From Planctomycetota bacterium (GTDB taxonomy: Bacteria > Planctomycetota > Phycisphaerae > Phycisphaerales > SM1A02), in the NCBI GenBank assembly GCA_016873255.1, contig VGXR01000008.1, positions 1 to 64,000 on the forward strand: DNA of 64,000 bases. The letters are read 5' to 3'. Positions 4,299 through 62,696 of the stretch are shown piece after piece; within the stretch, counting starts at the first letter, position 1, and the number at the start of each line of letters is the position of its first letter. A model generated the notes under the pieces. It ran no database searches. It saw only the letters and a list, made by a program, of their open reading frames with translations, and had not been told where the DNA came from. A program made the position numbers and the translations under genes.

Positions 4299-4340
4299 GC
4301 GGCACGGAATGTAGCCGGGCCGCGCACGCGCCGCGAAACG

Positions 4341-4375
4341 CCGCAGCCCCGGGCCGTGAGGCACCGGGGCTGCGG
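4341..4375 (-). terminator. Hairpin after the 4425-5075 gene
   Basis: A 12-bp stem (ccgcagccccgg / ccggggctgcgg) with an 11-nt loop lies about 50 nt beyond the stop codon of the PEP-CTERM gene and just upstream of the exbB promoter region. Confidence 0.7.
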
Positions 4376-4424
4376 GAGTGGACGGGGCGTGCCGGTGGCG
4401 CGCCGGGCGGGTTTGGCGCCGCTG

Positions 4425-5075
4425 TCAACGGCGGCGGCTTGCCGCAAGGCCTGCGACCGCGAGGAGCGCCACGGCTCCGGGGGCCGGCACCTGCGACACG
4501 AAGCCGACGTTGTAGTTGGCCACGGCGTTCGTGGCGCTGACCGATGCGGCCGTCGCCAGGATGCTCACGCGATAGGTGTGCCCCGCACTCACGGCGAAGG
4601 CGCCTGAGCCGATCGCGGGTCCCGTGAACGCAAGGGCCACCGAGGATGCGGTCAGGTCGACGACCGCGAGGCTGATGGTCGCCGCGTTGCCAACCCCGCT
4701 GGCCTCTTGCCAGAGGTCGGCGATCCAGAGGACTTTCGCCGCGGCATCGGCGGTGAAGGTCACGGTGGCCGCGCTGCGCGCCGCCAGGGTGGCGTCGCCG
4801 CTGGAACTCACCTGTGCGGAGCCGACGAAGTTCATCTCGTCGGCAAGGAGGCTGGAGCCAAGGGTTGCGAGGATCGACTGCGCCACCGACGTGGAGCGCG
4901 CGGAGCCGAACCACGACGTGAACGAGGTTGTCGCCTGCGACTGGACCACCACGCCTCCAATGGAGGCCTCGGTTTCCCGGGCGGCGGACTGGAAGACAAA
5001 CCCGGCATTCGCGGCAGCCGTCAGCGAGAGGGCGACAGCACCAAATGCACAGCGTGCAGCAACGGAGGACGACAT
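4425..5075 (-). CDS. PEP-CTERM-like secreted protein
   Basis: A 216-residue protein. The ATG at 5075 is preceded by a good ribosome site (GAAAGGAAAGG). A signal peptide runs to about residue 26 (ALSLTAAANAGF). The body is Ala/Ser/Thr-rich, beta-type, with no recognisable catalytic motif. The tail is VPAPGAVALLAVAGL followed by ASRRR, the PEP-CTERM-like sorting signal. It is not obviously related in the body to the other PEP-CTERM proteins here. It is monocistronic by layout, with its own leader and terminator. Likely a surface or matrix protein. Confidence 0.87.
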   Translation of the reverse strand: MSSSVAARCAFGAVALSLTAAANAGFVFQSAARETEASIGGVVVQSQATTSFTSWFGSARSTSVAQSILATLGSSLLADEMNFVGSAQVSSSGDATLAARSAATVTFTADAAAKVLWIADLWQEASGVGNAATISLAVVDLTASSVALAFTGPAIGSGAFAVSAGHTYRVSILATAASVSATNAVANYNVGFVSQVPAPGAVALLAVAGLAASRRR

Positions 5076-5244
5076 GGCAGGCCTTTCCTTTCGAGACCGA
5101 TGACACCTGAGCCACTGCACAGATGCCCGTTCCCCTGCCACCGGACGCGAACTACTTGAGCGCCCAATCGAAGATGCACCGATCCGGGCCCCTGTCCAAC
5201 GGAATCGCAGGGAATATCGTGGATCGTTTCCCCCGGGAAATGGA

Positions 5245-5280
5245 CCGCCGCCCCGGACCATTGCGGGTCCAGGGCGGCGG
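5245..5280 (-). terminator. Hairpin after the secreted protease gene
   Basis: ccgccgccc pairs with gggcggcgg, and after one mismatch ggacc pairs with ggtcc, giving a long stem with a 6-nt loop about 44 nt past the protease stop. A second small palindrome, tttcccccgggaaa, lies just beyond at 5227-5240. Confidence 0.7.
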
Positions 5281-5323
5281 GCGAATACAAGTCATTGTCA
5301 CGGCGCTGTTTGCGCCGGAACGG

Positions 5324-7597
5324 TCACGGGCAGGCGCCCCAGGCGCCCAGCAGCACGCCGAGGTCGGTGCCGTCGGTGTTGCCGTCACCGGAGATGTCGG
5401 TCACGGCCGTGCCCCAGCCGCCGAGCAGCACCCCGAGGTCGGAGCCGTCGATCTGGCCGTCCACCACGAAGTCCCCGAGGCATGCTGCGCAGCTGGTGGT
5501 CAGCGATCCGCTGCCCGAGGCTGCCGAGGGCGAGCCCACGCGGATGTACCACGTGCTGCCCGTGGTCACGGGCCATGACACCGTGCTCGTGCCCGAGGCG
5601 CAGCCGGCGGTGTTGTCGTCGCAGGCGGTCACGGCGGTGGCCGCGGTCGGGCAGGCGCTGCCGGGGTAGACCGCGAGCCGGGTGTCGAACGCTGCCAGCC
5701 CGCAGGTGGTGGCGCGCGCGTTGCCGTTGCACGTGGCCGTGTAGCGGAACCAGACGTCCTTGTTCATGGCCACGCCGGCACCCTCGTCGCACGAGGCCGG
5801 GATGGCGACGGCGCTGTTGGTGGCGGTGGTGGTGTTGAACGCGGAGGTGCCGTTGCCGATGGCGGTGGCGCCGGTGCACTCGTCGTTGCCGGGGACCGCG
5901 ATCGACGTGCTGAAGGTCAGCGTGTAGTCGTTGCGGGTGTCCGCGCCCAGGTACACGCGCATGTACACGGTGCTGCTGGCGCTGTTGTTGACGTAGGTGA
6001 ACGACTCGTTGTTGGTGTTTGCGTTGCGGTCGACCGCGACGGCGCCGCCGCAGGCGTTGAAGAGCTGGACGTCGACGTCGCCATTTGCGTGCGTGAAGGT
6101 CATGCTCACCGTGAGCGTGGAGCCCACCGGGACGGGCAGGGCGTACCAGTCCTCGTCGAGGCGCTTCACGACCAGTGCGCTGTAGGTGCCGGCCGTCAGC
6201 GCGCGCGCCGCGGCGCACGAGTCGTTCGGCTCCTGCGCATCGTCCGAACCCACGGCCAACGAGGTCGCGAACCCGGTTGAGCTGGTGTTGACGGCCACGT
6301 CCCAGCGTCCGTAGCCGTCGTCGGCGGCCGTTGCCGAGCAGGCGCTGGCGCCGCAGGTCAGCACGCCGTACATCTTCTTGTCGCTGTTACGGTAGATGGC
6401 GCTGCCCGAGGAGCCGCCCTCCGTCACGCCCGTGTTGGTGACGCCGTACTGCGTCGCCGAGTTCCAGGAGAGCGACGACCAGTTGGACGTGGGCGACCCG
6501 CAGTTGAACGAGTTTGCGTTCTTGGTGCCGAACGAGATGCGCTGGTAGCTGCCGTCGGGGTGGTGCAGGCCGGTGCTTGCGGTGCTGGTGGGGACGGTCG
6601 CGCTTGTCCAGCCGACCCAGTAAGCGGTGGTCGGAAGCGTCGGGCGCTCCATCAGCAGCGTGCAGTCGCTGTTGAGGTGCGTGCGCACGAGGTCGCCGCC
6701 GGTGACGTTGGTGCCTGCCGCCGCCGTTGCCGCGGACGCGCAGGTGTTCCGGCGGTAGAAGAAGTTGAACTGGCAGCTGTTGGCCTCGGCCTGCGTCGAG
6801 ATGCAGTGGTTGGCCGTGGAGACGTAGGGCGTCTCGTCCGCGGCCGTGGTGGCGATCAGCTGGCCCGAGCAGACGAAGCCGCCGAAGATCAGGCGCACGG
6901 TTCCGTTGGACTCGTTGGCCCACGTGGGGAAGCAGATCGGGTCGAGGTGGCACGGGCCCACGGCCACGCCGCCCTCGGCGAGTTCGTCGAGCTTCCAGAT
7001 CTTCCGGTAGCCGTGGTAGTAGTCGACGCCGGTGAAGGGGAGGTCGGTCACGGACTGCCCGTGCGGCACGAACCACTCGATGAGCGTCCGGTTGGTGGCA
7101 AGAGACATGCCCCAAATCGATCCGTTGCCGAACTCGCCCACGCCCTCGATCGGGCCGACGACGCTGTCGAAGAAGCCGGGGTTCGAGAGGCGCAGTTGCT
7201 GGCCCTGGGGCAAGTTGATGCCCGTGAGGTGCAGGCGCGCGGTGGTGGCGTTGTAGGAGAGGAGTTCGACGCGCCAGAGGCGGCCGCCCGGCACCTGCAG
7301 CCACTGGCCGTCATCGATGCTCATGGACGCCGCGACGGGGATGGCGAAACGGAGCGGCTTCGAGCCCGCGCTGCCGCGTGAGAGCTCGTCTTCCATGAGG
7401 TACGCCTCGTTGTCCTGGTTGGGCAGGACGAAGAGCGGCGCGGGCACGATGTCGAAGCCGAACTCCGCCGACAAGGTCGGGGTGGGGGCCTGCTCGGGCC
7501 AGGCCTGTCCCGCGAGCGCGTGGCCTTCCGCGTCGGCGTGGACAGCGCCCGTGAAGGCGAGGGTGACAAGCCCGATGGATCGGATGAGTTGCTTCAT
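5324..7597 (-). CDS. Secreted trypsin-like (lysyl endopeptidase-type) serine protease with PPC and dockerin-like domains
   Basis: A 757-residue exported protein starting MKQLIRSIGLVTLAFTG (signal peptide). The S1 protease domain shows the His region STANHCIST and the nucleophile region GVTEGGSSGSAIY, with Cys pairs and a TGLHHPDGSYQRIS stretch as in bacterial lysyl endopeptidases. Next come a pre-peptidase C-terminal type beta-sandwich (DDAQEPNDSCAAA to YTLTFS) and a second beta-sandwich (NDECTGATAI to LTTSC). The last 50 residues hold two Asp-rich dockerin-like loops (QIDGSDLGVLLGGWG, NTDGTDLGVLLGAWG) that may bind calcium and mediate attachment. The specificity for lysine is not proven by the sequence. 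Confidence 0.9.
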   Translation of the reverse strand: MKQLIRSIGLVTLAFTGAVHADAEGHALAGQAWPEQAPTPTLSAEFGFDIVPAPLFVLPNQDNEAYLMEDELSRGSAGSKPLRFAIPVAASMSIDDGQWLQVPGGRLWRVELLSYNATTARLHLTGINLPQGQQLRLSNPGFFDSVVGPIEGVGEFGNGSIWGMSLATNRTLIEWFVPHGQSVTDLPFTGVDYYHGYRKIWKLDELAEGGVAVGPCHLDPICFPTWANESNGTVRLIFGGFVCSGQLIATTAADETPYVSTANHCISTQAEANSCQFNFFYRRNTCASAATAAAGTNVTGGDLVRTHLNSDCTLLMERPTLPTTAYWVGWTSATVPTSTASTGLHHPDGSYQRISFGTKNANSFNCGSPTSNWSSLSWNSATQYGVTNTGVTEGGSSGSAIYRNSDKKMYGVLTCGASACSATAADDGYGRWDVAVNTSSTGFATSLAVGSDDAQEPNDSCAAARALTAGTYSALVVKRLDEDWYALPVPVGSTLTVSMTFTHANGDVDVQLFNACGGAVAVDRNANTNNESFTYVNNSASSTVYMRVYLGADTRNDYTLTFSTSIAVPGNDECTGATAIGNGTSAFNTTTATNSAVAIPASCDEGAGVAMNKDVWFRYTATCNGNARATTCGLAAFDTRLAVYPGSACPTAATAVTACDDNTAGCASGTSTVSWPVTTGSTWYIRVGSPSAASGSGSLTTSCAACLGDFVVDGQIDGSDLGVLLGGWGTAVTDISGDGNTDGTDLGVLLGAWGACP

Positions 7598-7749
7598 GTG
7601 TGGGTCCGTGGGGGTGCGGGGCAACGAGACAGTGCGGCCCGGAGGTCTCCTGTACGACTACGGTAAGGTCCGGGATCTGTTTGGCAAGCGTGAAGGCGCC
7701 CAAACGACCGGATTTGGCGCTTCCGGCGAGCCAGATTTTAGTCCTATAA

Positions 7750-8814
7750 TCAGGTGTGTCGCGCGGACTTGTAGGCCACTTCCGCGATCCGGCTCAGCCG
7801 GCGCGTGATGATCGCGCCAAGCACGACGAGCGCGAGAAGCACCGCGGCGGCGACGCCCGCCAGGAGCCACAGGCCTTCCCGAAGCACCTCCCGGGCCTTG
7901 GCGACCTCGCCCAAGTGATCGCCGAGCGCCTTGACCGAGGACGCAAGTTCGTCGGCGGCGCCGCTGACCGACGAGAGCGTCGCCTGCGTCTCGTTGAGGC
8001 GCTGTTCGATGGTGACGGCGCTCGCAAGGGCCGCCTGCACTTCCTTGCCCTGGCGGACCTCGTCGATGACTGCCTGCGCCTCCCAGCCCGCGGCCGTCGG
8101 CAGCCTGCTGGCCAGCCACACCATCCGCGCGCCCACCAGTCGCGCACGCTCCAGCTCCGCGCGCGCGTCCTCCACCGGGCTCAGCATGGCCTGCGGTGCC
8201 TGCGCGATGACCTGCATGCGGCTTCCCGAGTAGTCGCGCAGGTCGTCGATGCGGAACAGCCCGGCGCTCAGGAGGTCCGGATGGCGCACCTGGAAGTCCG
8301 CCACGAGTGCGTCGAGCTGCTGGCGCTGCTCCGCGGAGAAGACGGGCTCTCCGTTGAACCCGGTCTCCATGATGGTGTCGATCCGGCGCTTGACTTCGCC
8401 GTACGTCGCCGTGCAGTCGTAGGGTGCGTCCTTGAACGCGGGCATGATGGCATTGCGGTAGGCGCATGCCTGCTCGGCGAGCCGTACCCACACATACATG
8501 TCGACCAGCGTGCCCGTCGGGTCTTGCCCGAGCGCGAGCGCCCGAAGGTTGTTGACCGTCGTGTTCCGCGTCACCTGCTTCAGGAGGTACAGCTCGCCCG
8601 CCTCCTGTCTGGCGTAGCTCTTGGTGACCTCGGTCGCAAACAGCGTCATCCCCACGTCGGCGATGTCCAGCAGGTTGGCGGCCAGCTCGAGGCGCAGCTT
8701 CGTGCCCTCGTCGATCGGTCGCGGCGGTGCGGAGCAGGAACTGAGCGCGATCGCAATCGTTCCCGAGAGTGCGGCGAGTGCGCGGAGGGCGGCGGTGCGT
8801 GCGGTGCCGGTCAT
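7750..8814 (-). CDS. Membrane-anchored lipoprotein of unknown function, helical, with C-terminal transmembrane helix
   Basis: A 354-residue protein. The N-terminus has a lipobox (IAIALSSCSAP, Cys about residue 27), so it is probably acylated. The long body is mostly helical with heptad-like Glu/Arg/Leu patterns, especially near VTIEQRLNETQATLSSVSG, which resembles the coiled-coil region of sensory or tethering proteins. A single hydrophobic helix (AGVAAAVLLALVVLGAII) is followed by a short basic tail. No enzymatic motif is seen. The start at 8814 has TAAGAT 10 nt upstream. It is divergent from the S9 peptidase gene. A lipid-anchored chemosensory-like domain is possible but unproven. Confidence 0.75.
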   Translation of the reverse strand: MTGTARTAALRALAALSGTIAIALSSCSAPPRPIDEGTKLRLELAANLLDIADVGMTLFATEVTKSYARQEAGELYLLKQVTRNTTVNNLRALALGQDPTGTLVDMYVWVRLAEQACAYRNAIMPAFKDAPYDCTATYGEVKRRIDTIMETGFNGEPVFSAEQRQQLDALVADFQVRHPDLLSAGLFRIDDLRDYSGSRMQVIAQAPQAMLSPVEDARAELERARLVGARMVWLASRLPTAAGWEAQAVIDEVRQGKEVQAALASAVTIEQRLNETQATLSSVSGAADELASSVKALGDHLGEVAKAREVLREGLWLLAGVAAAVLLALVVLGAIITRRLSRIAEVAYKSARHT

Positions 8815-8859
8815 CAGGCGCGGGATCTTAGCGGTGCACGGCATGCGTATCGTGCGTCG
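8815..8859. promoter_or_regulatory. Short divergent promoter region
   Basis: Only 45 bp separate two divergent start codons. A minus-strand TAAGAT (8830-8825) ends 10 nt before the lipoprotein ATG, and a plus-strand TATCGT (8848-8853) ends 6 nt before the peptidase ATG. Both fit a TANNNT -10 element giving leaderless or nearly leaderless transcripts. Confidence 0.45.
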
Positions 8860-10557
8860 ATGGCCCTTGTCACGCGCCTCGCCCCGCTTGCCGCCGCTGC
8901 GTTCGTTGCGCTGACCGCACCGGCCGGCGGCGTGCCCGTGCCGGCCGGGCTTGCCGCCCCCTCGACCGCGCCGGACGGGCGACACGCCGTCGCGTGGGAG
9001 GTGGTGCCGGCGCAGGAGCACCCGGTGACGGTCGTCGAGAGCTCCCCGGTGGACCAGGTGCAGCCGCGCGTGCGCACGCTGAACTACCTGAAGCCCGGAG
9101 ACCGCATCGAGGAACGGTGGCCGCGGCTCTTCCGGGCCGACGGCACCGAGGTGCCCATCGATCGCGCGTCGTTCACGACGCCCTGGTCGAACGACGGCCT
9201 GCGCTGGGCGGCGGATGGCCGCAGCTTCACGTTTGTCCACAACCGGCGCGGCCATCAGCTGCTGCGGCTCGTGAGCGTGGATGCGGCGACGGGGGCGGTG
9301 CGCACGGTCGCGGAGGAAACCTCGCCGACCTTCGTGGACTACGCGCACAAGACGTGGATGCACTGGCTCGCGGAGGACGAGCTGCTCTGGATGAGCGAGC
9401 GCGACGGATGGAACCACGTCTACCTCATCGACGTGCCGACGGGCAGCGTGCGGCGGCAGGTGACGCGGGGACGCTGGATGGTGCGCTCCGTGGAGTCGGT
9501 GGACGCGGCCGCGCGAACGGTCACGCTGCGTGCCATGGGCATTGATGCGGCGCAGGACCCCTGCTTCGAGCACTGGATGCGCGTGCCGATCGACGGCGGC
9601 GAGGCGGTGCGGCTGACGCGCGGCGACGGCACGCACCGCGTGGAGTGGAGTCCCGGCGGCCGCTGGTACGTGGACACCTGGTCGCGGGTGGACCTGCCGC
9701 CCGTGAAGGAACTGCGCGACGGGCACGACGGGTCGCTCGTGTGCGAGCTCGGTCGCGGGTCCGTCGCGACGCAGCTGGATGCGGGCCGGGTGCTTCCCGA
9801 GCGCTTCGTGGCCAAGGGCCGTGACGGCGTGACCGACATCCACGGCGTCATCTTCCGGCCCCGCGGCACGGCGAACGACCCGACGCCGAGGCCCGTGCTG
9901 GAGTGCGTGTACGCGGGGCCGCAGGACTTCCACGCGACGAAGGAGTGGTCGCCGAACCACGGCCTGCAGGCGATCGCCGATGCGGGCTTCGTGCTGGTGC
10001 AGGTGGACGGCATGGGCACGAACTGGCGCGGCAAGGCGTTCCACGACGTCTGCTGGAAGAACCTGAAGGATGCGGGGTTCCCCGATCGCATCGCGTGGAT
10101 CAGGGCCGCGGCGGCGACGCGGCCGTGGATGGACCTCTCGCGCGTCGGGATCTACGGCGGCAGCGCGGGCGGCCAGAGCGCCATGCGCGCGTTGATCGAC
10201 CATGCGGACTTCTATTCCGTGGCGGTGGCCGACTGCGGCTGCCACGACAACCGCATGGACAAGGCGTGGTGGAACGAGCTGTGGATGGGGTGGCCCGTCG
10301 ACGAGAGCTACGAACGCAGCTCGAACGCCGCCGATGCCGCGCGGCTGCGGGGAAGGCTGATGCTGGTCGTGGGCGAGCTCGACGAGAACGTGGACCCCGC
10401 GAGCACGATGCAGGCGTCCGCCGCGCTCGTGCGCGCAGGGATCCTGCATGAGCTGGTGGTGGTTCCCGGGGCAGGGCACGGCGCGGCGGAGACGCCCTAC
10501 GGCTATCGCAAGCGGCTTGGCTTCCTGCGGCGCCACCTGCTCGGCGCGCCGGAATGA
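8860..10557 (+). CDS. Prolyl oligopeptidase family (S9) serine peptidase, DPP IV-like
   Basis: A 565-residue protein with an N-terminal signal peptide. It has the C-terminal part of a DPP IV-type beta-propeller (LLWMSERDGWNHVYLIDVPTG, GDGTHRVEWSPGGRWYVDT) and then the alpha/beta-hydrolase domain. The triad is visible: Ser about 435 in GIYGGSAGGQSAM, Asp in VVGELDENVDP, His in VPGAGHGAAE. S9 enzymes cleave short peptides, often after proline. Compared with the usual 700-800 residue relatives, the first propeller blades appear to be missing, so the propeller may be incomplete. There is no clear Shine-Dalgarno; TATCGT lies 6 nt before the ATG. Confidence 0.9.
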   Translation: MALVTRLAPLAAAAFVALTAPAGGVPVPAGLAAPSTAPDGRHAVAWEVVPAQEHPVTVVESSPVDQVQPRVRTLNYLKPGDRIEERWPRLFRADGTEVPIDRASFTTPWSNDGLRWAADGRSFTFVHNRRGHQLLRLVSVDAATGAVRTVAEETSPTFVDYAHKTWMHWLAEDELLWMSERDGWNHVYLIDVPTGSVRRQVTRGRWMVRSVESVDAAARTVTLRAMGIDAAQDPCFEHWMRVPIDGGEAVRLTRGDGTHRVEWSPGGRWYVDTWSRVDLPPVKELRDGHDGSLVCELGRGSVATQLDAGRVLPERFVAKGRDGVTDIHGVIFRPRGTANDPTPRPVLECVYAGPQDFHATKEWSPNHGLQAIADAGFVLVQVDGMGTNWRGKAFHDVCWKNLKDAGFPDRIAWIRAAAATRPWMDLSRVGIYGGSAGGQSAMRALIDHADFYSVAVADCGCHDNRMDKAWWNELWMGWPVDESYERSSNAADAARLRGRLMLVVGELDENVDPASTMQASAALVRAGILHELVVVPGAGHGAAETPYGYRKRLGFLRRHLLGAPE

Positions 10558-10578
10558 CTGCGCGGGCCCGGGCGCGGC

Positions 10579-11040: not shown

Positions 11041-11099
11041 GCGTGCAGGATAGGTGCGCGCGTTGCGTAGAATCGCGCGCCTCACCAGAGGATCCACGC
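11041..11099. promoter_or_regulatory. Divergent promoter region between PGPGW gene and ettA
   Basis: In 59 bp it holds a minus-strand TATCCT (11052-11047, 6 nt before the PGPGW ATG) and a plus-strand TAGAAT (11068-11073, 26 nt before the ettA ATG). Only ettA has room for a ribosome site (agagga, 11086-11091). Confidence 0.45.
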
Positions 11100-12806
<1,707 letters not shown>

Positions 12807-12818
12807 GCCAGCGGCGGC

Positions 12819-12836: not shown

Positions 12837-12871
12837 CGGGCGCCTGCCGGGCGGGCCTATCCTCCGCGCCC

Positions 12872-14803: not shown

Positions 14804-14868
14804 CGCACGCAGCATAGCCTCGGCCGGGATGGTCTCCCGCGATGCCCCCGGACGGCGTGCGTTGCGGC

Positions 14869-19510: not shown

Positions 19511-19555
19511 CCCGGAAGTGTACGGGCGGGCGGCTTGCCGGACGGGCCGCGTGCG

Positions 19556-22006: not shown

Positions 22007-22061
22007 GCGCGAAGCCCGAGGATAGCCGGGTCCCGGAACCTTCGGCTACCCTTGGCGGACC
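22007..22061. promoter_or_regulatory. Divergent promoter region between bamA and the GcvT-family gene
   Basis: In 55 bp it contains minus-strand TATCCT (22024-22019, 12 nt before the bamA ATG) and plus-strand TACCCT (22047-22052, 9 nt before the gcvT-like ATG). Neither gene has a recognisable ribosome site. Confidence 0.45.
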
Positions 22062-25302: not shown

Positions 25303-25306
25303 TCGC

Positions 25307-31231: not shown

Positions 31232-31340
31232 GGCGCGGGAGTCTAGGGCGTGGCCGCTGTCCTCGCCCGCCGCCGACGGACGCCCCCGCCCCGATGCCCC
31301 GAACTCCCCCGCCGAGGCTCCGCTTGCGCTGGCGGTCTCG

Positions 31341-33874: not shown

Positions 33875-33998
33875 GGATGCTGGGTGCGCTGAGCGCGGGT
33901 GTGCCAAGCCTAGCCCGTGGCGCCCGAGGCGCCACCATGCATTCCCGTTTCGGCGCCGGACGAGGCCTTGCGCTCCGGGCCGCTAGCATTCCCGGCAG

Positions 33999-34082
33999 GC
34001 GGGCGTGGCGAAATTGGCAGACGCACGAGATTTAGGTTCTCGTGGGGTAACTCCCGTGCAGGTTCAAGTCCTGTCGCCCGCA
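33999..34082 (+). tRNA. tRNA-Leu (anticodon UAG)
   Basis: An 84-nt cloverleaf with acceptor stem GCGGGCG / CGCCCGC, discriminator A and no encoded CCA. The anticodon stem CGAGA/TCTCG encloses loop TTTAGGT, giving anticodon TAG (34033-34035), which reads CUN leucine codons. A long variable arm (tggggtaactcccgtgc) marks it as a class II tRNA, and the T arm has GGTTCAAGTC. TAGCAT ends 9 nt upstream of the 5' end, and a small hairpin (33917-33935) lies further up. The DAHP synthase gene starts 20 nt downstream and may be co-transcribed. Confidence 0.97.
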
Positions 34083-36348: not shown

Positions 36349-36366
36349 CCGTAGACTGCGCGGCCC

Positions 36367-39661: not shown

Positions 39662-39709
39662 TTTCACGGCATCCTCGGGGCGGCACCCCCACTACACTTT
39701 GCCGCTCCC

Positions 39710-42939: not shown

Positions 42940-43077
42940 GGAGCGGCGGACGATACGCCCGCGCGCATGCCGGTCGGGGCATTCCGGGGAATCCGCCCGG
43001 AATTCGCGCACGCCGCCGCTCTCGCTCGCTACGCTTCTGCCCGCGAACGGGGATCCCCCCCGCGCAGTCCCAGCACC

Positions 43078-52770: not shown

Positions 52771-52797
52771 GCGCCAAGGGTATATTCGTCCGGTCCC
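52771..52797. promoter_or_regulatory. 27-bp divergent promoter shared by gluQ and the pterin dehydratase gene
   Basis: The only AT-rich element is ggtatatt (52779-52786). On the plus strand TATATT ends 11 nt before the dehydratase ATG. On the minus strand TATACC ends 8 nt before the gluQ ATG. The -35 regions would have to lie inside the opposite gene's start. Confidence 0.5.
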
Positions 52798-54740: not shown

Positions 54741-54750
54741 GGGGGCGATT

Positions 54751-55566
54751 CTAAGCCGCGACCGCCGAATGCACGGCCTTCAATCCGGCAAGCAGCGCAG
54801 GAATCGAGTCGAGGGGCTGGATGGTCCCCGCGTCGCTGAGGCTGCGCGCCGGGTCGGGGTGGCACTCCAGGAACACCGCATGCACGCCTGCCGCCACCGC
54901 CGCGCGGGCAAGCAGCCCGCAGCGCTCCGGGCGTCCGCTCGTGGCGGTCCCGGCGCCGCCGGGCAGCTGCAGGCTGTGCGTGGCATCGAAGCACACGGGT
55001 GCGCCGAGGGCCATCATGTCACCGAGCCCGATGAAGTCCGTCACCAGCCGGTTGTAGCCGAAGAAGGTGCCGCGCTCGGTGAGCATGCGCTGAGTGCATC
55101 CGCCCTCCGCGAGCTTGGTGAGCACGTTGCGCATCTCCTCGGGCGACATGAACTGCCCCTTCTTCACGTTGACGGGCCGGCCGGTGCCCGCCGCCGCCGC
55201 CAGCAGGTCCGTCTGCCGACAGAGGAACGCCGGGACCTGCAGAAGGTCGACGACCTTCGCGGCGGGTGCCGCCTGCAACGGGTCGTGGATGTCGGTGGTG
55301 ACGGGCGCCCCCAGCAGTTCCCGCAGCCGGGCCATCTCCTCCAGGCCTCGCTCGAGGCCCGGTCCGCGGTGCCCCTTGATGCTCGAGCGGTTGGCCTTGT
55401 CGAAGCTCGCCTTGAAGACGAAGGGCAGACCAAGCGCGGCGCAGGCATCGCGGACCGTCGCCCCGATGCGCTCATTGGTGGACCGGTCCTCCAGGATGCA
55501 GGGCCCGGCGATCACCAGGAGGCGTCGGCCCGGGGCCGCGAAGAACTCGGTCAAGACGGTGCTCAT
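54751..55566 (-). CDS. kdsA: 3-deoxy-8-phosphooctulonate synthase
   Basis: A 271-residue TIM-barrel enzyme making Kdo 8-phosphate from arabinose 5-phosphate and phosphoenolpyruvate. Signatures: VIAGPCILED, FKASFDKANRSS, VTTDIHDPLQA, NVKKGQFMSPEEM and CFDATHSLQLPGG. Kdo is the core sugar linking to lipid A, so the gene complements the lpx set at 14-19 kb. The ATG at 55566 fits the family start. It is 10 bp downstream of the mcsA start region on the same strand, but separate in function. Confidence 0.95.
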   Translation of the reverse strand: MSTVLTEFFAAPGRRLLVIAGPCILEDRSTNERIGATVRDACAALGLPFVFKASFDKANRSSIKGHRGPGLERGLEEMARLRELLGAPVTTDIHDPLQAAPAAKVVDLLQVPAFLCRQTDLLAAAAGTGRPVNVKKGQFMSPEEMRNVLTKLAEGGCTQRMLTERGTFFGYNRLVTDFIGLGDMMALGAPVCFDATHSLQLPGGAGTATSGRPERCGLLARAAVAAGVHAVFLECHPDPARSLSDAGTIQPLDSIPALLAGLKAVHSAVAA

Positions 55567-55760: not shown

Positions 55761-56558
55761 ATGTCGCGAGTCCCGGAAACCCCTGAGCAGTTCAGCACCT
55801 TCGTCTGCGACCTGGTGCGCCGGCGCCACCCCTCGCGGAAGGTCGAGCTCTCGGCCACGCTGGTGCTCACCATCGACGGCCGCCACCTCGGCCTCGAGAA
55901 CCTCTGGCGCACCGTGCAGCGTGCTCCGGAGGCGTGGCTCGAGACGGTCGAGCACCACGTCGACCGCGTGCTCGAGGGCGACCAGATGAGCTCGCTCGAC
56001 ATCCCGTTCGCCGTGGCGAAGCCGCGCATCATGCCGCGCATCCAGCCCGCGAACATCTTCCAGACGCTCGACCGCGAGCAGGTGGCGCACGTCACGTGGG
56101 TGAACGACACCGTGATCGTGTTCGTCATGGACATGCCGCACTACACGGTCTCCATCAGCACCGAGCAGATGATCCGCTGGGGCGTGACCGCGGAGGACCT
56201 CGAGGAGATCGCGCGCGCCAACCTCGACCGGTACGCGCCGAACCTCGACGTGCAGGTGGTCCGCTCCAACGAGGGCGGCCGCGCCGCCATCATCAGCATG
56301 CACGACGGCTACGACGCCGCGCGGCTCCTGCTGGGTGACCTGCACTCCCGGCTCTCCGCGCAGCTCGGACGCACCTTCTACGTGGCCGCGCCCGCGCGCG
56401 ACATGTTCCTCGCCATGACGGGCGACCCCGAGCCGTTCGTGTCGCGCCTGCGCGCGCGCGCGGAGCAGGAGTACCACCGGCTTCCTTACCCGATCTGCGC
56501 GGACCTGTTCCTGGTGACCCCCGACGGCGTCGCCGGGACCAAGACCGAGGCCGCCTGA
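55761..56558 (+). CDS. DUF1444-family protein
   Basis: A 265-residue cytoplasmic protein without signal peptide. Typical segments: VELSATLVLTIDGRHLGLEN, FAVAKPRIMPRIQPANIF, WVNDTVIVFVMDMPHYTVSI and LRARAEQEYHRLPYPICADL. Members are found in Bacillus (YtpQ) and planctomycetes. The function is not established. A run-in ribosome-like stretch (gtggagcg) precedes the ATG at 55761. Confidence 0.82.
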   Translation: MSRVPETPEQFSTFVCDLVRRRHPSRKVELSATLVLTIDGRHLGLENLWRTVQRAPEAWLETVEHHVDRVLEGDQMSSLDIPFAVAKPRIMPRIQPANIFQTLDREQVAHVTWVNDTVIVFVMDMPHYTVSISTEQMIRWGVTAEDLEEIARANLDRYAPNLDVQVVRSNEGGRAAIISMHDGYDAARLLLGDLHSRLSAQLGRTFYVAAPARDMFLAMTGDPEPFVSRLRARAEQEYHRLPYPICADLFLVTPDGVAGTKTEAA

Positions 56559-56564
56559 GCCCGT

Positions 56565-57218
56565 TCAGCCCGCGAGGGCCGCGATCGCATCGCCCACGGC
56601 CCCGAGCGCCGCAAGCGCCCGGGGCATGTCCCATTGCTGGCGCGGGCGGTCGCCGGTCGTGTTGCTGATCGCGCGGACCTCGATGCCGGGAACGCCCGCG
56701 CGCAGCGCCGCATGCACCACCGCGGCGCCTTCCATCGCCTCCGCGGCCGCGTGCGTCCGCTCGCGGATCCGCCGCGCGGCCGCATCGGTGCCCGAGCACG
56801 TCGCCACCGTCGCGATCGGCGCCACCGGGCCCAGCGCCGCGAAGGGCGCCCACAGCGTGCGGTCGACCGGCACCGAGTTTCCCCGGAACGGGCCGAGCGG
56901 GAACCCGAGCGTCGACATGTCGCCGAATCCCGCGGGAAGCTCGATTCCCTCCTCCGCGTAGACGCACCGCTCCGAGATGACCACCGCACCCGGCGCGAGT
57001 CCTGAGCCCGGGAGCGAGCCGGCGATGCCCGCCGAGACCGCGGCACCGAAGGGGCGCCCGCCTGCACGCGCCAGCGCGAGCGCCTCGGCCGTCGCGGCTG
57101 CGGCGTTCGTTCGCCCGATCCCCGCCACAGCTACCTCCACGCCCGCCGAACCGAGGCAGCGTGCACCGAGCGCGGCGCGCTCGGCGTCCACGGCCACCAC
57201 GACGAGCACGCGGGGCAC
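56565..57218 (-). CDS. mqnB: Futalosine hydrolase
   Basis: A 217-residue nucleosidase with a GTG start. It shows AVSAGIAGSLPGSGLAPG, ERCVYAEEGIELPAGFG, the acid/base segment EAMEGAAVVHAAL and the family-specific VRAISNTTGDRPRQQWDMP. It removes hypoxanthine from futalosine in the alternative menaquinone pathway. The stop of hisS lies one base upstream of its start. A 5'-methylthioadenosine nucleosidase is the main alternative, but the last motif favours MqnB. Confidence 0.88.
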   Translation of the reverse strand: MPRVLVVVAVDAERAALGARCLGSAGVEVAVAGIGRTNAAAATAEALALARAGGRPFGAAVSAGIAGSLPGSGLAPGAVVISERCVYAEEGIELPAGFGDMSTLGFPLGPFRGNSVPVDRTLWAPFAALGPVAPIATVATCSGTDAAARRIRERTHAAAEAMEGAAVVHAALRAGVPGIEVRAISNTTGDRPRQQWDMPRALAALGAVGDAIAALAG

Positions 57219-57219
57219 G

Positions 57220-58569
57220 TCAGCCCCCGCCCGCGCGCAGCGCGGCCGCGAGGTCGGCGATCGACGCGAGGCGCTGCTCGCCGCTCGAGAGGTCCTTGAG
57301 CTGCGCCGCGCCCTGCGCGAGTTCCGCGCCCAGGATCACCGCGAAGCGCGCGCGCTGCTTGGAGGCCTCGGCGAGCAGCTTCCCCACGTTGCGCGTCGCC
57401 TTGTAGGTGTGCCGGACGTGGAAGCCGTCGGCGCGCAGGCGCGCCACGAGCCGCGGCAGCTCCGCGTCGGCGGCCGGGTCGCCGGCCGACACCACGAACG
57501 CATCGGGCCGTGGCAGGAGCTCCGCACCGTCCTTGGGCAGCAGCCCGCGGTCGGCGAGCACCAGGCCCAGCACCACGTCCCCCATGCCGAAGCCGATCGC
57601 GGGCATGCGCGGCCCGCCGAAGAGCTCGACCAGCCCGTCGTAGCGGCCGCCGCCGGCGATCGCGCGCTCGGCACCGGAGGCTTCGTGGACCTCGAACACC
57701 GTGCCCGTGTAGTAGGCCAGCCCGCGCACGATGCCGAGGTCGAGCTCGCACCACTCCGCGAGGCCCGCGGCCGAGAGCGCCTCGCGCAGCGCTGCGAGCT
57801 CCGCAAGCTCCGAGGCGTCGATGCCCGCCGCCGCCGCCAGCGCACCCAGGTCGCCCGCGAGCGGCACGCGCGTGCGCACGGCGTGCTCGAAGCGCGCGAG
57901 CGCGTCGCCAGCGAGGCCCAGCGCCGCGGCGCGCTTCGTGAATTCATCCGCGGGCATCTTGTCGCGGCGGTCGAGCAGCTCGAACGCCGCGGCGACCGAA
58001 CCCTCCGCCACGCCGAGCGCGCGCACGAGCCGCGCCGCCGCCACGCGGTGGCTGATCTTGACGCGCACGTCCTGCGGGCCGAGACCCAGCCGCGACAGCG
58101 CGTTCACGGCCACGCCGATGACCTCTGCGTCGATCGCGGGTCCCTCGAGCCCGAGCAGGTCGACGTTCCACTGGAAGAACTCGCGCAGCCGCCCGCGCTG
58201 CGGGCGCTCGGCGCGGAAGAAGTTCGGCACCGCGAACCACTTGACCGGCACGGGCAGCTGCGCCGCGCGGGCCGCCGCCATGCGTGCGAGCGTGGGCGTG
58301 AACTCCGGGCGCAGCGCATAGTCGTCGCTGCCGCCCTGGCGCCGGAAGCTGAAGAGCTCGCTCACGATTCCGTCGCCGCTCTTGGCGGTGTACAGCCCGA
58401 GGTGCTCGAACGCCGGCCCGTCGATCTCGTCGTAGCCGAACGCCACGCTGGCCTCGCGCCAGGCACGCTCGATCCGCCGGCGAACGGCCATCTCGGCCGG
58501 GTAGAAGTCCCGGGTCCCCTTCGGTGCCTGGAAGCCGTGTGCCTGGAAGCCGTGTGAGTCGGAGCCCAT
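57220..58569 (-). CDS. hisS: Histidyl-tRNA synthetase
   Basis: A 449-residue class II synthetase. Motif 1 is near FQAPKGTRDFYPAEMAVRRR, motif 2 is FFRAERPQRGRLREFFQWNVD, the histidine-specific loop is GLAYYTGTVFEVHE, and motif 3 is IAGGGRYDGL with GFGMGDVVLGL. The C-terminal anticodon-binding domain runs from about 345 (PDAFVVSAGDPAADAEL) with ATRNVGKLLAEASKQRARFA. The N-terminus carries a duplicated HGFQA from a 15-bp direct repeat. It follows a membrane-protein gene with one base between stop and start. Confidence 0.95.
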   Translation of the reverse strand: MGSDSHGFQAHGFQAPKGTRDFYPAEMAVRRRIERAWREASVAFGYDEIDGPAFEHLGLYTAKSGDGIVSELFSFRRQGGSDDYALRPEFTPTLARMAAARAAQLPVPVKWFAVPNFFRAERPQRGRLREFFQWNVDLLGLEGPAIDAEVIGVAVNALSRLGLGPQDVRVKISHRVAAARLVRALGVAEGSVAAAFELLDRRDKMPADEFTKRAAALGLAGDALARFEHAVRTRVPLAGDLGALAAAAGIDASELAELAALREALSAAGLAEWCELDLGIVRGLAYYTGTVFEVHEASGAERAIAGGGRYDGLVELFGGPRMPAIGFGMGDVVLGLVLADRGLLPKDGAELLPRPDAFVVSAGDPAADAELPRLVARLRADGFHVRHTYKATRNVGKLLAEASKQRARFAVILGAELAQGAAQLKDLSSGEQRLASIADLAAALRAGGG

Positions 58570-58570
58570 G

Positions 58571-59155
58571 TCAGCGTGCCGCCGGGCGGATGATGAGCGC
58601 GCACGCGACGCCGGCGAGCGACCAGCCGACGAGCCCGTCCACGAAGAGGGCCAGTGCGTAGGCATCCGGCAGTTGGAAGAAGTTCCACAGGACACCGTGC
58701 GTCGCCAGCACCGCGAAGGCCGGGACGACCAACCCGATCGCCAGGCGGTCCTGCGTGCGTGCGCCGAACTTGGCCGCGATGCCCACCACCGCGGCGAGCA
58801 TCGCCGTGCAGAAGAGCTCGATCAGGAACCCCTTGGCAAGCAGCGTCGGCGACATCGGGTCCGTGCCGTCGCGCCGGACGATGGCCATCACCAGCGGCCC
58901 GCGCCGGTGCTCCTCCAGGAACGCCTGCATCGCGAGCTCGGACTGCTGCGCGGTCATGCCTGCCGTGTCCGGCGGGGCCGGGGCGATCAACACGCCGTCG
59001 CGGTCGGCCGCCGACGCCAGCTGCGCGGGCAGGGTGGAGGCCAGCGCCGGCGGCATCGGGCGGAACGCGAAGTCGTACATGCCCGTCGTCCAGGACATCG
59101 CGCCCCATCCGAAGACGAGCACCGTGCCCACGATCATCGCCACGACCATCCGCAT
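58571..59155 (-). CDS. Membrane protein of unknown function
   Basis: A 194-residue protein with a first helix (MVVAMIVGTVLVFGWGAMSW), a soluble segment of about 70 residues and three C-terminal helices (LIELFCTAMLAAVVGIAA, AIGLVVPAFAVLATHGVL, FVDGLVGWSLAGVACALI). I do not recognise the family. TAGCCT ends 6 nt before the ATG. It is co-oriented with hisS, with a one-base gap, so the two are likely co-transcribed. Confidence 0.75.
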   Translation of the reverse strand: MRMVVAMIVGTVLVFGWGAMSWTTGMYDFAFRPMPPALASTLPAQLASAADRDGVLIAPAPPDTAGMTAQQSELAMQAFLEEHRRGPLVMAIVRRDGTDPMSPTLLAKGFLIELFCTAMLAAVVGIAAKFGARTQDRLAIGLVVPAFAVLATHGVLWNFFQLPDAYALALFVDGLVGWSLAGVACALIIRPAAR

Positions 59156-59164
59156 GGCGGAAGG

Positions 59165-60370
59165 CTAGCGGATCTCGGAGAGCGCCACGGGCCGCCGCGT
59201 GCGAGCGCAGCGCACCGCGGCCTCGAGCACGCGCTGCGTCTCGTAGGCATCCGCGAAGTCGGGGATGGCAACGACGGGCTTCCTCCCCGCGAGCGCCAGC
59301 ACCGTGTCCGCCGCCTGGCTCACGAAGCCGTGCTCGTACCCGAGGACGTGCGCGGCGGGCCAGTAGCTTCCGGCATACGGGTGGCCGGGGTCGGTGCACA
59401 TGATGCGGCTCCACCCGCGCATGCGCGCCGGCAGCGTGTGGTCCCACCACTGCAGCTCGTTCATCCGCTCGAAGTCGAACCGCACGCTCCCGAGCTCGCC
59501 GTTCAGCTCGATCTGGTTGCGGTTCTGGTTGCCCGTGGCCAGGCGCGTGGCCTCGAAGCTGGCGACCGCGCCCCCCGACATGCGCGCGAGGAAGAGCACC
59601 GCGTCATCCACCGTGCTGCGCCCCTTCCGCCGGCCGCGCGACGCCGCGCGCTTCGCGCCCTTGCCGCTGATGGCGCCGCCCGAGCCCTCCACCAGGTCGC
59701 GCTCCTTGACGAAGGTCTCCTCGACGGCGCCGACCACCTCGGTGACCTCCTCGCCCGTGATGAACCGCGCCATGTCGATGACGTGCGCGTTGAGGTCGCC
59801 GTGCGCGCCGCTGCCGGCCAGCTTGCTTTGGAAGCGCCACAGGAGCGGCGTGGAAGGCCCGCCCCAGTCCTGCAGGTAGCTCGCGCGCACGTGGAAGATG
59901 CGCCCGAGCTTCCCTTCCTTCACGAGCTGGTGCGCGAACGCCACCGCGGGGCAGCGCCGGTAGTTGAACCACACGAAGGTGCGCACCCCGCGCCTGGCGG
60001 CCTTGCGGGCCGCGTCGCGCATGCTCCGGGCATCCTCCAGGGTGCCCGCGAGCGGCTTCTCGCACGCCACGTTCTTGCCCGCCTCCAGGGCCTCGATGGA
60101 CACCTCGGCGTGCACGTGGTTCGGGGTGCAGTTGTCGATGAGGCCCACCTGCGGGTCGGTCACGAGGTCGCGCCAGTCGTCGGTGCAGCACTGCCACCCC
60201 CAGCGCTGCGCGAAGCCGGCGACGTCCCCGGCGTTGGTCCCGGCCACGGCGCGCATGGCCACGTGCAGCGGCAGGTCGAAGAACCGGGGTGCCGACATCC
60301 ACGCGTTGCTGTGGGCGCGCCCCATGAAGCTGGTGCCGACCAGTCCGATGCCGAGGGTCTTCTGCTTCAT
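59165..60370 (-). CDS. Gfo/Idh/MocA-family oxidoreductase
   Basis: A 401-residue NAD(P)-dependent dehydrogenase. The Rossmann start is GIGLVGTSFMGRAHSNAW, with DNCTPNHVHAEVSIEALEAG and the family EKP motif in VACEKPLAGT. The C-terminal alpha/beta domain has GDLNAHVIDMARFITGEEV. An Arg/Lys-rich loop (GAKRAASRGRRKGRSTVDD) is an unusual insert. Members oxidise or dehydrate sugars and inositols. Substrate unknown. TAGGAT ends 10 nt before the ATG, in a 26-bp divergent region. Confidence 0.92.
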   Translation of the reverse strand: MKQKTLGIGLVGTSFMGRAHSNAWMSAPRFFDLPLHVAMRAVAGTNAGDVAGFAQRWGWQCCTDDWRDLVTDPQVGLIDNCTPNHVHAEVSIEALEAGKNVACEKPLAGTLEDARSMRDAARKAARRGVRTFVWFNYRRCPAVAFAHQLVKEGKLGRIFHVRASYLQDWGGPSTPLLWRFQSKLAGSGAHGDLNAHVIDMARFITGEEVTEVVGAVEETFVKERDLVEGSGGAISGKGAKRAASRGRRKGRSTVDDAVLFLARMSGGAVASFEATRLATGNQNRNQIELNGELGSVRFDFERMNELQWWDHTLPARMRGWSRIMCTDPGHPYAGSYWPAAHVLGYEHGFVSQAADTVLALAGRKPVVAIPDFADAYETQRVLEAAVRCARTRRPVALSEIR

Positions 60371-60396
60371 CGCGGCGCGTATCCTACGGAACACCT
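60371..60396. promoter_or_regulatory. 26-bp divergent promoter with a shared TATCCTA core
   Basis: gtatcctac at 60379-60387 reads TATCCT on the plus strand (11 nt before the 60397 ATG) and TAGGAT on the minus strand (10 nt before the 60370 ATG). One AT-rich core apparently serves two leaderless genes. Confidence 0.5.
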
Positions 60397-61617
60397 ATGG
60401 CAAACACCAACGCCACCCCCCAAACTTCCGATGTCGACGCACGCCTCGCCCGCCTCGAGGCGGAACTGGCCCTCGCCCGCGGCGACGCGCGCCGCGCGCG
60501 CCGCACCTCGTGCGCGCTGCTGTGCCTGGCCGGTGCCGCGGCTGCCGGCGGCCTGATGGCCGCGTCGCAGGTCGCGCGCGTCGAGGACGTGCTGCGCGTG
60601 AAGCGCCTCGAGGTGGTCGGCGAGGGAGACAAGGTGGTCCTCCTCGCGCAGGCCTCGGAGACGGGCGGCCAGCTCGACCTGTGGTCGAAGGGCGGCACCA
60701 ACACGGTGCGCCTGGCGTGCGCGGCCGACGGCGGCGACGTCGCGGTGTGGAACAACGGCGGAAAGCCGGTCGGCGGGCTGTTCGCCTCGGCGCTCGGCGG
60801 CAGGCTCGAGCTCGGCGGTGCCGACGGCACCACGCTCGCCACCATCTCGCGCGGCGAGGAAGGCGGTTCGCTCCACCTCATGGGCGCCGGCGGCGGCACC
60901 AGCAGCCTGCGTGCCGAGGCCGGCGCCGCGGGCGCCGTGCTCTCGATGCGGCGCGCCGACGGTGCGGTGGGCATGCTCGCGGGCATCTCGCAGGGCGCGT
61001 CGGTGCTCTCGATGTCCAACCAGTCGGGCAAGGAGATCCTCTTCGCGGGCGGAGCCTCGGACCAGTCGGGCACGGTGCGCATCGCGGACGCAGGCGGGAA
61101 CGAGTGCGCGTCGATCGTGTCGTCGATGGGCGGCCACTTCAACGCGAAGGACGGCGCGGGCGCCATGGCTGCCAGCCTCTCCAGCGCCGGCGCGGGCAAG
61201 GGCGGCGCGCTGCAGCTCATGAACGGAGCGGGTGCCTCCGCCATCCGCATGGACGCCAAGGACGAGGGCGGCGGCCGGCTGATGGTGGGCACCTCCACCG
61301 GAGCCCCCGCGTTCCTCGCCGAGGCCAACGGCGGAGCCGGCACGCTCGCTGCGTACCTCCAGGAGCGTCGCGTCGCGGCGATCGGTGCCGGCAAGTCGGG
61401 CGGCCTCCTCAACCTGCTCGACGGCAGCGGCCAGGCGATCGTCGTCGCCGGTGCCGCCGAGGACGGCGATGGCGGCGCCGTGAGCGTCCGCAATGCGCGC
61501 GGCGTGCAGATCGGGCGCCTCGGCGTGGATGCCGCGGGCGCAGGAGAGCTGGCCGTCTACAACGCCACCGCCACCCTCAAGAAGCTCATCGAGGCCCCGG
61601 CGCCCGCCGCCAAGTGA
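60397..61617 (+). CDS. Membrane-anchored repeat protein of unknown function
   Basis: A 406-residue protein. It begins with a short coiled coil (DVDARLARLEAELALARGDA), followed by one membrane helix (CALLCLAGAAAAGGLMAAS). About 340 residues of glycine-rich repeats of roughly 20 residues follow, with pattern (G/A)xxGxxxLxLxxxxG (for example GSLHLMGAGGGTSSLRAEAG). The pattern suggests a beta-helix or similar solenoid on the outside of the inner membrane. No catalytic motif is present. It is divergent from an oxidoreductase gene. Confidence 0.78.
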   Translation: MANTNATPQTSDVDARLARLEAELALARGDARRARRTSCALLCLAGAAAAGGLMAASQVARVEDVLRVKRLEVVGEGDKVVLLAQASETGGQLDLWSKGGTNTVRLACAADGGDVAVWNNGGKPVGGLFASALGGRLELGGADGTTLATISRGEEGGSLHLMGAGGGTSSLRAEAGAAGAVLSMRRADGAVGMLAGISQGASVLSMSNQSGKEILFAGGASDQSGTVRIADAGGNECASIVSSMGGHFNAKDGAGAMAASLSSAGAGKGGALQLMNGAGASAIRMDAKDEGGGRLMVGTSTGAPAFLAEANGGAGTLAAYLQERRVAAIGAGKSGGLLNLLDGSGQAIVVAGAAEDGDGGAVSVRNARGVQIGRLGVDAAGAGELAVYNATATLKKLIEAPAPAAK

Positions 61618-61643
61618 CCCCGCACCGCTAGCATCCCCCGCCC

Positions 61644-62078
61644 ATGTCCACCGCCACCGCCAACGCCGTCGCCCGCGTCGTGCTGGAAGAAGTGCTCCCC
61701 GCCACGGCCGGCGCCCCCGCGCGCGTGCGCGTGTCGCTGCCGACCATGGCCTACCGCACGGAGCTGGTGCTCGCGGGCGACGCGTCGGCGCTCGCCGGCC
61801 GCGTCGGCAAGCGCATCGAGGGGACGATCCGCGGCAAGGCACAGCGCGCGTGGCAGGCAACCGCGGGCGGCTGCTTCATCGAGCCCGTTTGGGGCGCGCC
61901 GCGCGTCGTGCAGGGCCGCGTGCTCGCGGTCGACCTCGACGCGAACGCCGTGCTCCTCGACCTTGCCTTCCCGGCGTGGGTGACGCTGGAGCCGTCCCAG
62001 GGCGCGGGGTCGTTCCAGACCGGCGACATGCTCAACTTCTACGTCGAGAGCGGCATGAGCTTCACGCCGAGGGCGTGA
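61644..62078 (+). CDS. Conserved hypothetical protein
   Basis: A 144-residue soluble protein, mostly beta-strand by pattern (RVRVSLPTMAYRTELVLAGD, RVLAVDLDANAVLLDLAFPA). The family was not recognised. TAGCAT ends 9 nt before the ATG and no ribosome site is visible. Its last 17 bases overlap the convergent amidotransferase gene. Confidence 0.75.
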   Translation: MSTATANAVARVVLEEVLPATAGAPARVRVSLPTMAYRTELVLAGDASALAGRVGKRIEGTIRGKAQRAWQATAGGCFIEPVWGAPRVVQGRVLAVDLDANAVLLDLAFPAWVTLEPSQGAGSFQTGDMLNFYVESGMSFTPRA

Positions 62079-62670
62079 CGGCGGCGGGCCGCATCCGCAG
62101 GAAGTTCGCAAGCAGCGCGGGGCCGTGCTCGGTGAGGAAGCTCTCCGGGTGGAACTGCACGCCCTCGAGCGGCGCGGCGCCCGGCGGCGCCTTCCAGCGG
62201 ATCCCCATGATCTCGCCGCGCGCGGTCCTGGCCGACACCTCGAAGTCCGGGTGCACGGTGTCGGGGTCGATCACCAGCGAGTGGTAGCGCGTGGCGACCA
62301 TCGGGTTCGGCAGCCCGGCGAACACGCCGCGCCCGTCGTGCAGCATTTCGCTCGTCTTGCCGTGCACGGCCACGTCGTTTCGTCGCACCGTCATCGCGTG
62401 GCAGTGCCCGATCGCCTGGTGCCCGAGGCACACGCCGAGCGCGGGGATGCGCCCCTTGAAGCGCATGAGGAGCTCGCCGCTCACGCCGGCCTCGCGCGGG
62501 GTGCACGGGCCCGGCGAGATCACCAGGTGCGTCGGCCGCAGCGCCTCCGCGCCGGCCGCGTCGATGGCATCGTTGCGCACCACCTCGATGCGCAGCGCGG
62601 GATCGATCTCCGCGAATCGCTGCACCAGGTTGAACGTGAACGAGTCGTAGTTGTCGATCAGGAGGAGCAC
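62062..62670 (-). CDS. pabA: Glutamine amidotransferase subunit of aminodeoxychorismate/anthranilate synthase
   Basis: A 202-residue class I amidotransferase with a GTG start. It has DNYDSFTFNLVQRF, oxyanion segment ISPGPCTPREAG, nucleophile Cys in LGVCLGHQAIG and His-Glu in GVQFHPESFLTEHG. It supplies ammonia from glutamine to the chorismate-converting subunit for folate (PabA) or tryptophan (TrpG); sequence alone does not separate these and one protein may serve both. No pabB/trpE is near. TAGAGT ends 9 nt before the GTG. Confidence 0.92.
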   Translation of the reverse strand: MLLLIDNYDSFTFNLVQRFAEIDPALRIEVVRNDAIDAAGAEALRPTHLVISPGPCTPREAGVSGELLMRFKGRIPALGVCLGHQAIGHCHAMTVRRNDVAVHGKTSEMLHDGRGVFAGLPNPMVATRYHSLVIDPDTVHPDFEVSARTARGEIMGIRWKAPPGAAPLEGVQFHPESFLTEHGPALLANFLRMRPAAVTPSA

Positions 62671-62696
62671 GCGCCGACCACTCTATCGCCGCCGCG

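Follow-up and report, generated by a model that had tools for sequence, protein, structure and literature searches.

A start-adjacent TANNNT hexamer points to leaderless gene expression in a Phycisphaerales planctomycete

Introduction

In a 64,000-nucleotide stretch of planctomycete DNA (the window, 71.9% G+C), many genes are preceded by a hexamer, TANNNT, that ends 6–12 nt before the start codon. Is this hexamer a promoter whose transcripts begin at the start codon, a signal for the ribosome, or a product of chance? Deinococcus and actinobacteria are well-known users of leaderless expression, and a sequence-only reading of the window had proposed the same mode here. We analysed 859 kb of the genome of this uncultured freshwater bacterium, 795 kb of it outside the window, using gene starts that we predicted ourselves and called blind to the upstream sequence.

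Results

Hexamers in the window

The sequence-only reading had paired hexamers with 20 start codons (19 ATG and one GTG), and its hexamers, gaps (nucleotides between hexamer and start codon) and strands were all exact. On the reverse strand, TATCCT at 11047..11052 (gap 6, ATG 11040) precedes a PGPGW transmembrane protein gene, TATGCT at 14811..14816 (gap 7, ATG 14803) a gene without a Pfam match, TACACT at 19517..19522 (gap 6, ATG 19510) an OmpH-like gene, TAGACT at 31240..31245 (gap 8, ATG 31231) a DoxX gene, TATCGT at 42950..42955 (gap 10, ATG 42939) a DEAD-box helicase gene and TAGAGT at 62680..62685 (gap 9, GTG 62670) a class I glutamine amidotransferase gene. Forward-strand examples stand ahead of genes for an M24 peptidase (TATCCT, 12858..12863, gap 8, ATG 12872), a beta-ketoacyl synthase (TAGACT, 36352..36357, gap 9, ATG 36367), a NuoG-like NADH dehydrogenase subunit (TACACT, 39693..39698, gap 11, ATG 39710), pterin-4a-carbinolamine dehydratase (TATATT, 52781..52786, gap 11, ATG 52798) and a protein without a Pfam match (TAGCAT, 61629..61634, gap 9, ATG 61644). 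Two divergent genes with start codons 45 bp apart each have a hexamer: TAAGAT at 8825..8830 on the reverse strand (gap 10, ATG 8814; no Pfam match) and TATCGT at 8848..8853 on the forward strand (gap 6, ATG 8860; S9 peptidase/DPP IV).

The gene finder prefers a different start for four of the 20 genes, all on the reverse strand, and their hexamers therefore depend on the start chosen in the earlier reading. These are TACATT at 4308..4313 (gap 9, ATG 4298, blind start 4241; MotA/TolQ/ExbB proton channel family, Pfam PF01618), TATCCT at 22019..22024 (gap 12, ATG 22006, blind start 21922; Omp85/POTRA, BamA-like), TAGAAT at 54748..54753 (gap 7, ATG 54740, blind start 54695; UvrB/UvrC-motif protein) and TAGCCT at 59162..59167 (gap 6, ATG 59155; no Pfam match), where the next ATG, 59149, was called at gap 12.

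Enrichment and position genome-wide

That the signal is widespread held up, with the qualification that the 20 sites were a selection: by blind calls, 42 genes in the window are leading or loosely spaced, and 16 of them have the hexamer. Across the 859 kb, TANNNT lies at gap 6–12 in 150 of 510 genes that are not operon-internal (leading plus loosely spaced genes), where 13.3 were expected, an 11-fold excess (P ~1e-100), and with the blind starts it ranks first among all 64 XYNNNZ patterns at these gaps. Its predicted rarity by chance was likewise confirmed. Among the leading genes outside the window, 117 of 408 carry it, where column shuffles yield 15.9 ± 3.8 (maximum 30 of 500); control windows of equal width farther upstream of these genes contain 11–17, and the reverse complement of TANNNT is not enriched at gap 6–12. 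A small positive control, the D. radiodurans megaplasmid, gave 12/81 (5.7 expected), and E. coli showed no excess (6/79 versus 9.5).

The positional peak is sharp in the independent 795 kb. It spans gaps 6–9 above a hard floor at gap 6, with gaps 0–5 nearly empty. The range of 6–12 here compares with a narrower 5–7 in related families. T1, A2 and T6 are strict; matches to two of the three are depleted, so the signal is not general AT-richness. An in-frame gap-6 pattern arising from upstream stop codons (TAA/TAG) was considered and rejected, as C and T predominate at hexamer position 3. The counts seem to drop at gap 8, flanked by peaks at 6–7 and 9, but with numbers of this size that may be noise.

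A putative −10 element at the start codon

In our preferred reading, to which we assign a probability of about 0.92, TANNNT would serve the housekeeping sigma factor (sigma-70) as its −10 element, adjoining the gene. RNA polymerase would begin transcription on the start codon's first base, or no more than a few bases away, giving an mRNA that has neither leader nor Shine-Dalgarno (SD) site and on which leaderless initiation would take place at the 5' start codon. Recognition would be carried by positions 1, 2 and 6 (T, A and T). No −35 box was visible at fixed or variable spacing upstream of the hexamer, where only positions −1 and −2 exceed 0.1 bit and TTGACA matches 15–19 nt from the hexamer are not stronger than in other places. 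Ordinary SD sites would serve operon-internal genes and many others, and the anti-SD CCTCCTTT is intact in the 16S rRNA of this genome. The start-adjacent hexamer mode would serve between roughly a quarter and 30% of the genes that have their own promoter. The mechanism is of a known kind. The leaderless promoter interpretation offered earlier for the window draws support, at the level of sequence, from SD avoidance, hexamers at tRNA genes, purine-free spacers, short divergent regions and conservation.

The spacer and the transcription start

Where the hexamer lies more than 7–8 nt away, the spacer from +7, counted from the hexamer, tends to be purine-free, which would leave the start codon as the first purine for the polymerase. 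In genes with a gap of at least 9, purines make up 21% from +7 to the start codon, compared with 43% at +3 to +6 and with 44% in other genes at equal distance from the start (P = 9e-9). This part of the spacer is purine-free in 36 of 70 such genes (6.5 ± 2.4 expected). Genes with gaps of 6–7 have no purine depletion at −2 to −4 from the ATG, and the depletion is thus registered to the hexamer, not to the start codon. With purines depleted from +7 at gaps of at least 9, the polymerase would usually meet its first usable purine at the start codon; in all, this is predicted for 111 of 167 hexamer genes.

These data bear on an alternative that we regard as unlikely but worth weighing: the hexamer would be a −10 element and many transcripts would carry short leaders of ~2–8 nt, with initiation that is independent of SD (through S1 or low structure) and not strictly 5'-terminal. 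In its favour, gaps of 9–12 account for 40% of the hexamers, a purine falls between +7 and the start codon in the other 56 of 167 genes, and at ATG 60397 a gap of 11 with a spacer purine is retained in nearly all relatives. Moreover, leaderless and S1-dependent initiation could not be separated for Planctomycetes by Nakagawa et al. (2017, PMC5397173). Against it stand the purine-free spacers, which in most genes leave the start codon as the earliest purine that can be used, and the hard floor at gap 6, which is what a transcription start on the start codon predicts. Within the preferred reading of a start-adjacent −10 element, mRNAs with gaps of 9–12 and spacer purines may be near-leaderless, with leaders of 1–6 nt.

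SD sites and tRNA genes

The claim that hexamer genes lack a ribosome site was borne out. SD-like words occur in 6 of 150 hexamer genes (4%) and in 116 of 360 others (32%, P = 5e-14); in the window, the sole such word at a hexamer gene (60370) is the AGGA within TAGGAT itself. Hexamer genes also start more often with ATG (132/150 versus 262/360, P = 1e-4).

Such exclusion of SD, together with a location where a ribosome site would normally lie, would suit a translation signal, that is, an AT-rich ribosome or S1 site of the Bacteroidota type. We consider this very improbable. A translation signal should be absent before non-coding RNA genes, but TANNNT stands at gap 9–17 ahead of 7 of 15 tRNA genes called by ARAGORN (8 sites). 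Among these non-translated control genes is the tRNA-Leu of the window (mature 33999–34082, forward strand), for which the hexamer reported earlier, TAGCAT at 33984..33989 with gap 9, was exact. Because tRNA genes have the same hexamer, we take it for a promoter element and not a ribosome site. The strictness of T1, A2 and T6 also argues against a broadly AT-rich site, as do the lower frequency of the hexamer ahead of operon-internal genes (17/173) and a purine depletion that keeps register with the hexamer and falls where transcription starts. Chance, or an artefact of starts selected in GC-rich DNA, has next to no probability: the original list was picked by eye and four of its starts differ from the blind calls, but it is refuted by the recurrence of the peak in relatives and, with blind starts and shuffles, in the 795 kb beyond the window.

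Divergent pairs and conservation

Of 114 divergent pairs, 38 have start codons separated by less than 80 bp. Among 37 listed pairs below 80 bp, a gap 6–12 hexamer was found by hand count on both sides in 17 and on at least one side in 34. The smallest spacing with a hexamer for each gene is 26 bp. Hexamers of opposite strands may even overlap. Within TATCCTA, the reverse-strand TAGGAT at 60381..60386 (gap 10, ATG 60370; GFO/IDH/MocA oxidoreductase) overlaps the forward-strand TATCCT at 60380..60385 (gap 11, ATG 60397), and CGTATCCTAC is invariant here in 12 genomes of the genus. The divergent region between bamA and gcvT has kept both hexamers in 11 relatives of the genus: the BamA-like gene's TATCCT, and TACCCT at 22047..22052 (forward strand, gap 9, ATG 22062; glycine cleavage T protein), the latter within a retained CGGCTA[CG]CCT.

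At slightly less than even odds, we tentatively propose that in this genus a purine-free, C-rich spacer, by making the start codon the earliest base on which RNA polymerase can begin, has freed the −10-to-start distance (6–12 nt), with the start codon defining the transcription start, and that shared −10 elements (TATCCTA) let divergent genes sit 26 bp apart without other control DNA.

Comparison with known systems

In Deinococcus-Thermus, a −10 motif adjacent to open reading frames has been described (Zhong et al., 2025, PMC12340547; Zheng et al., 2011, PMC3160421). The likeness lies in TANNNT with fixed T1, A2 and T6, a few nucleotides before an SD-less start codon, and in its use by roughly one third of genes alongside SD genes; the Deinococcus-Thermus motif needs no −35 element, and none is visible here. 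The differences are that the present case belongs to another phylum and is known from sequence alone, and that we found neither its wide gap (6–12) with a hexamer-registered purine-free spacer nor its very compact divergent pairs described in the parts of PMC12340547 and PMC3160421 that were consulted. Actinobacteria, for which PMC3160421 gives ~20% of genes as predicted leaderless, share with the present genome high GC, TANNNT as a −10 element (putative here) and a sizeable minority of leaderless genes (predicted here) beside SD genes (Mycobacterium tuberculosis, Cortes et al., 2013, PMC3898074; Streptomyces); 5' ends were measured in M. tuberculosis, whereas those proposed here are predicted. 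From a single planctomycete genome, and with no motif, Nakagawa et al. (2017, PMC5397173) proposed that translation in Planctomycetes starts by a leaderless and/or S1-dependent route. Their prediction of non-SD initiation agrees with ours; the difference is that the trait is patchy across families here. Apart from that suggestion we found no detailed description for Phycisphaerae among open papers, in keeping with the earlier remark that none was known.

Distribution across planctomycetes

The TANNNT signal was found across the order Phycisphaerales, in a tally covering 80 of 151 genomes, and in several other planctomycete families; family totals in the order and phylum tallies are partial. 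Several well-sampled planctomycete families have no TANNNT excess, which makes for a patchy occurrence in the phylum. Most relatives are represented by pattern counts only, and such counts over whole genomes carry a coding-sequence background. By these statistics a leaderless-type signal extends through the whole order, which would make Phycisphaerales, along with some further planctomycete families, users of leaderless expression on a wide scale. The hexamer offers a rule for fixing start-codon annotation in uncultured planctomycete genomes and yields a testable prediction of where transcription starts. Gain or loss of the putative leaderless mode can be traced inside one phylum, and even within a single orthologous gene: of 79 gcvT orthologs, 57 have the hexamer without SD, 18 have SD without the hexamer, four have neither and none has both.

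A TANNNT hexamer stands before the starts of many leading genes

The window comes from a 2.78 Mb genome in 152 contigs, whose closest named relatives are freshwater Phycisphaerales and planctomycete metagenome assemblies. All 20 pairs of TANNNT hexamer and start codon that a sequence-only reading had listed in the window, and the hexamer of its tRNA-Leu, were found exactly as written when rechecked on the sequence. As an independent sample, a further 795 kb of this genome was added to the window, and a self-trained coding model blind to upstream sequence gave 698 genes. Outside the window, TANNNT lies 6–12 nt before the start codon (the gap) in 117 of 408 leading genes, compared with 15.9 ± 3.8 in column shuffles and 11–17 in control windows of equal width further upstream. 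The positional count against shuffled controls thus gave the peak that the sequence-only reading had predicted, and the hexamer is indeed rare by chance at a fixed spot. The gap profile is near zero at 0–5, sets in at 6, stays high through 9 and tails off at 12. TANNNT ranks first by far among all 64 XYNNNZ patterns (150 vs 13.3). Matches to only two of the three fixed bases are under-represented (13% vs 27%), indicating that the three positions act together.

The hexamer is probably a transcription signal

Shine-Dalgarno (SD) words precede 6 of 150 hexamer genes but 116 of 360 others, which bears out the claimed absence of ribosome sites, and 88% of hexamer genes start with ATG against 73% of the others. 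Operon-internal genes are the opposite, with an SD in 41% and a hexamer in 17 of 173. The 3' end of the 16S rRNA, GGATCACCTCCTTTCTAAGG, is an ordinary anti-SD. TANNNT also stands 9–17 nt before 7 of 15 calls of tRNA genes (8 sites), which are untranslated; some calls without a hexamer appear to be false tRNAs. No −35 signal was visible upstream of the hexamers. As read from sequence, SD avoidance, tRNA hexamers and the lack of a visible −35 are the anatomy of a −10-only promoter whose mRNA would begin at the gene.

RNA polymerase normally initiates on a purine about 7–10 nt past the −10 element. If the mRNA is obliged to begin at the start codon, long-gap genes should therefore have no purines from the seventh position after the hexamer (+7) to the start. 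Purines make up 21% of this stretch, compared with 43% at +3 to +6 in these genes and 44% at positions equally far from the start in the remaining genes (P = 9e-9), and 36 of 70 long-gap genes have purine-free spacers (6.5 ± 2.4 expected). No purine depletion was found at the same start-codon distances (−2 to −4) in genes with gaps of 6–7, so the depletion goes with the hexamer, a pattern to be expected if it reflects where transcription starts but not if it belonged to a translation signal. Counting from +7, the first purine is met only at the start codon's first base in 111 of 167 hexamer genes; the other 56 may have leaders of 1–6 nt.

The best reading is that a sigma-70-type −10 element sits directly against the open reading frame, that transcription would begin at the start codon and that translation would proceed by leaderless initiation. 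Promoters of Deinococcus-Thermus and actinobacteria are of the same kind (PMC12340547, PMC3160421, PMC3898074), and this genome has the sequence features of that kind, in keeping with the likeness first proposed. The wide purine-free spacer is possibly a variant of it. Searches of the open literature brought up no work on promoters or 5' ends in Phycisphaerae, in agreement with the earlier remark that no detailed description existed; a leaderless mode was hinted at for one planctomycete (Nakagawa 2017, PMC5397173). The promoter type is already known elsewhere, and its probable occurrence in this planctomycete would add to the known range.

Divergent genes and conservation

Start codons lie <80 bp apart in 38 of 114 divergent pairs (one third), a spacing too tight for both genes to have leaders. 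Among 37 listed close pairs, a hexamer at gap 6–12 is present on both sides in 17 and on at least one side in 34. Such pairs are few or absent in relatives sampled from other families. In the tightest pair of the window (starts at 60370, minus strand, and 60397, plus strand; 26 bp apart, 60371–60396), TATCCT and TAGGAT overlap in TATCCTA, a heptamer with a hexamer on each strand and a candidate two-way −10 element. Between these genes CGTATCCTAC is invariant in 12 genomes of the genus and its flanks vary. In seven relatives the opposite gene starts about 80 bp away, yet the heptamer is unchanged.

At another divergent pair, CGGCTA[CG]CCT upstream of gcvT (22062, plus strand) is kept in 11 relatives, as is the hexamer facing it before the bamA-like gene (22006, minus strand). 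Across 79 gcvT loci, 57 have a hexamer at gap 5–12, 18 an SD, 4 neither and none both, although the loci are related by descent and a P value for this exclusion is not literal. Given this mutual exclusion, gcvT orthologs appear to switch promoter type, from leaderless to leadered or the reverse. A hexamer lies at 13–40 nt in 12 of the 22 loci without a close one. Several loci of the SD group have TANNNT at 25 nt. Five of the gcvT loci (L232, L294, L296, L243 and L272) come from public genome records titled Chitinophaga, Kuenenia, Bacteroidia or Limnohabitans; these loci are 59–84% identical to this planctomycete, and the titles look misassigned.

Distribution across the phylum

Whole-genome counts of TANNNT-N6-ATG, with in-frame N21 as control, gave a significant excess in 77 of 80 tabulated genomes of the order, with family medians of 129–194 extra sites. 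Outside the order, planctomycete families f54, f60, f67, f48, f56 and f52 also show an excess (ratios about 2–3.4), and none was found in whole-genome counts of the well-sampled families f30, f34, f36 and f37 (0.97–1.04). Within the phylum the trait thus has a patchy distribution. In 200 kb samples from other families of the order, the peak is narrow and lies at gap 5–7. In this genus the excess at gap 9 is 58–64% of that at gap 6, and few others come near this level, so the widened spacing belongs to part of the family. The top gap-6/gap-21 ratio of the tabulated survey (321 vs 18, whole genome) belongs to G179, a genome of family f6 in the order, which may rely on leaderless genes even more than the window's genome does.
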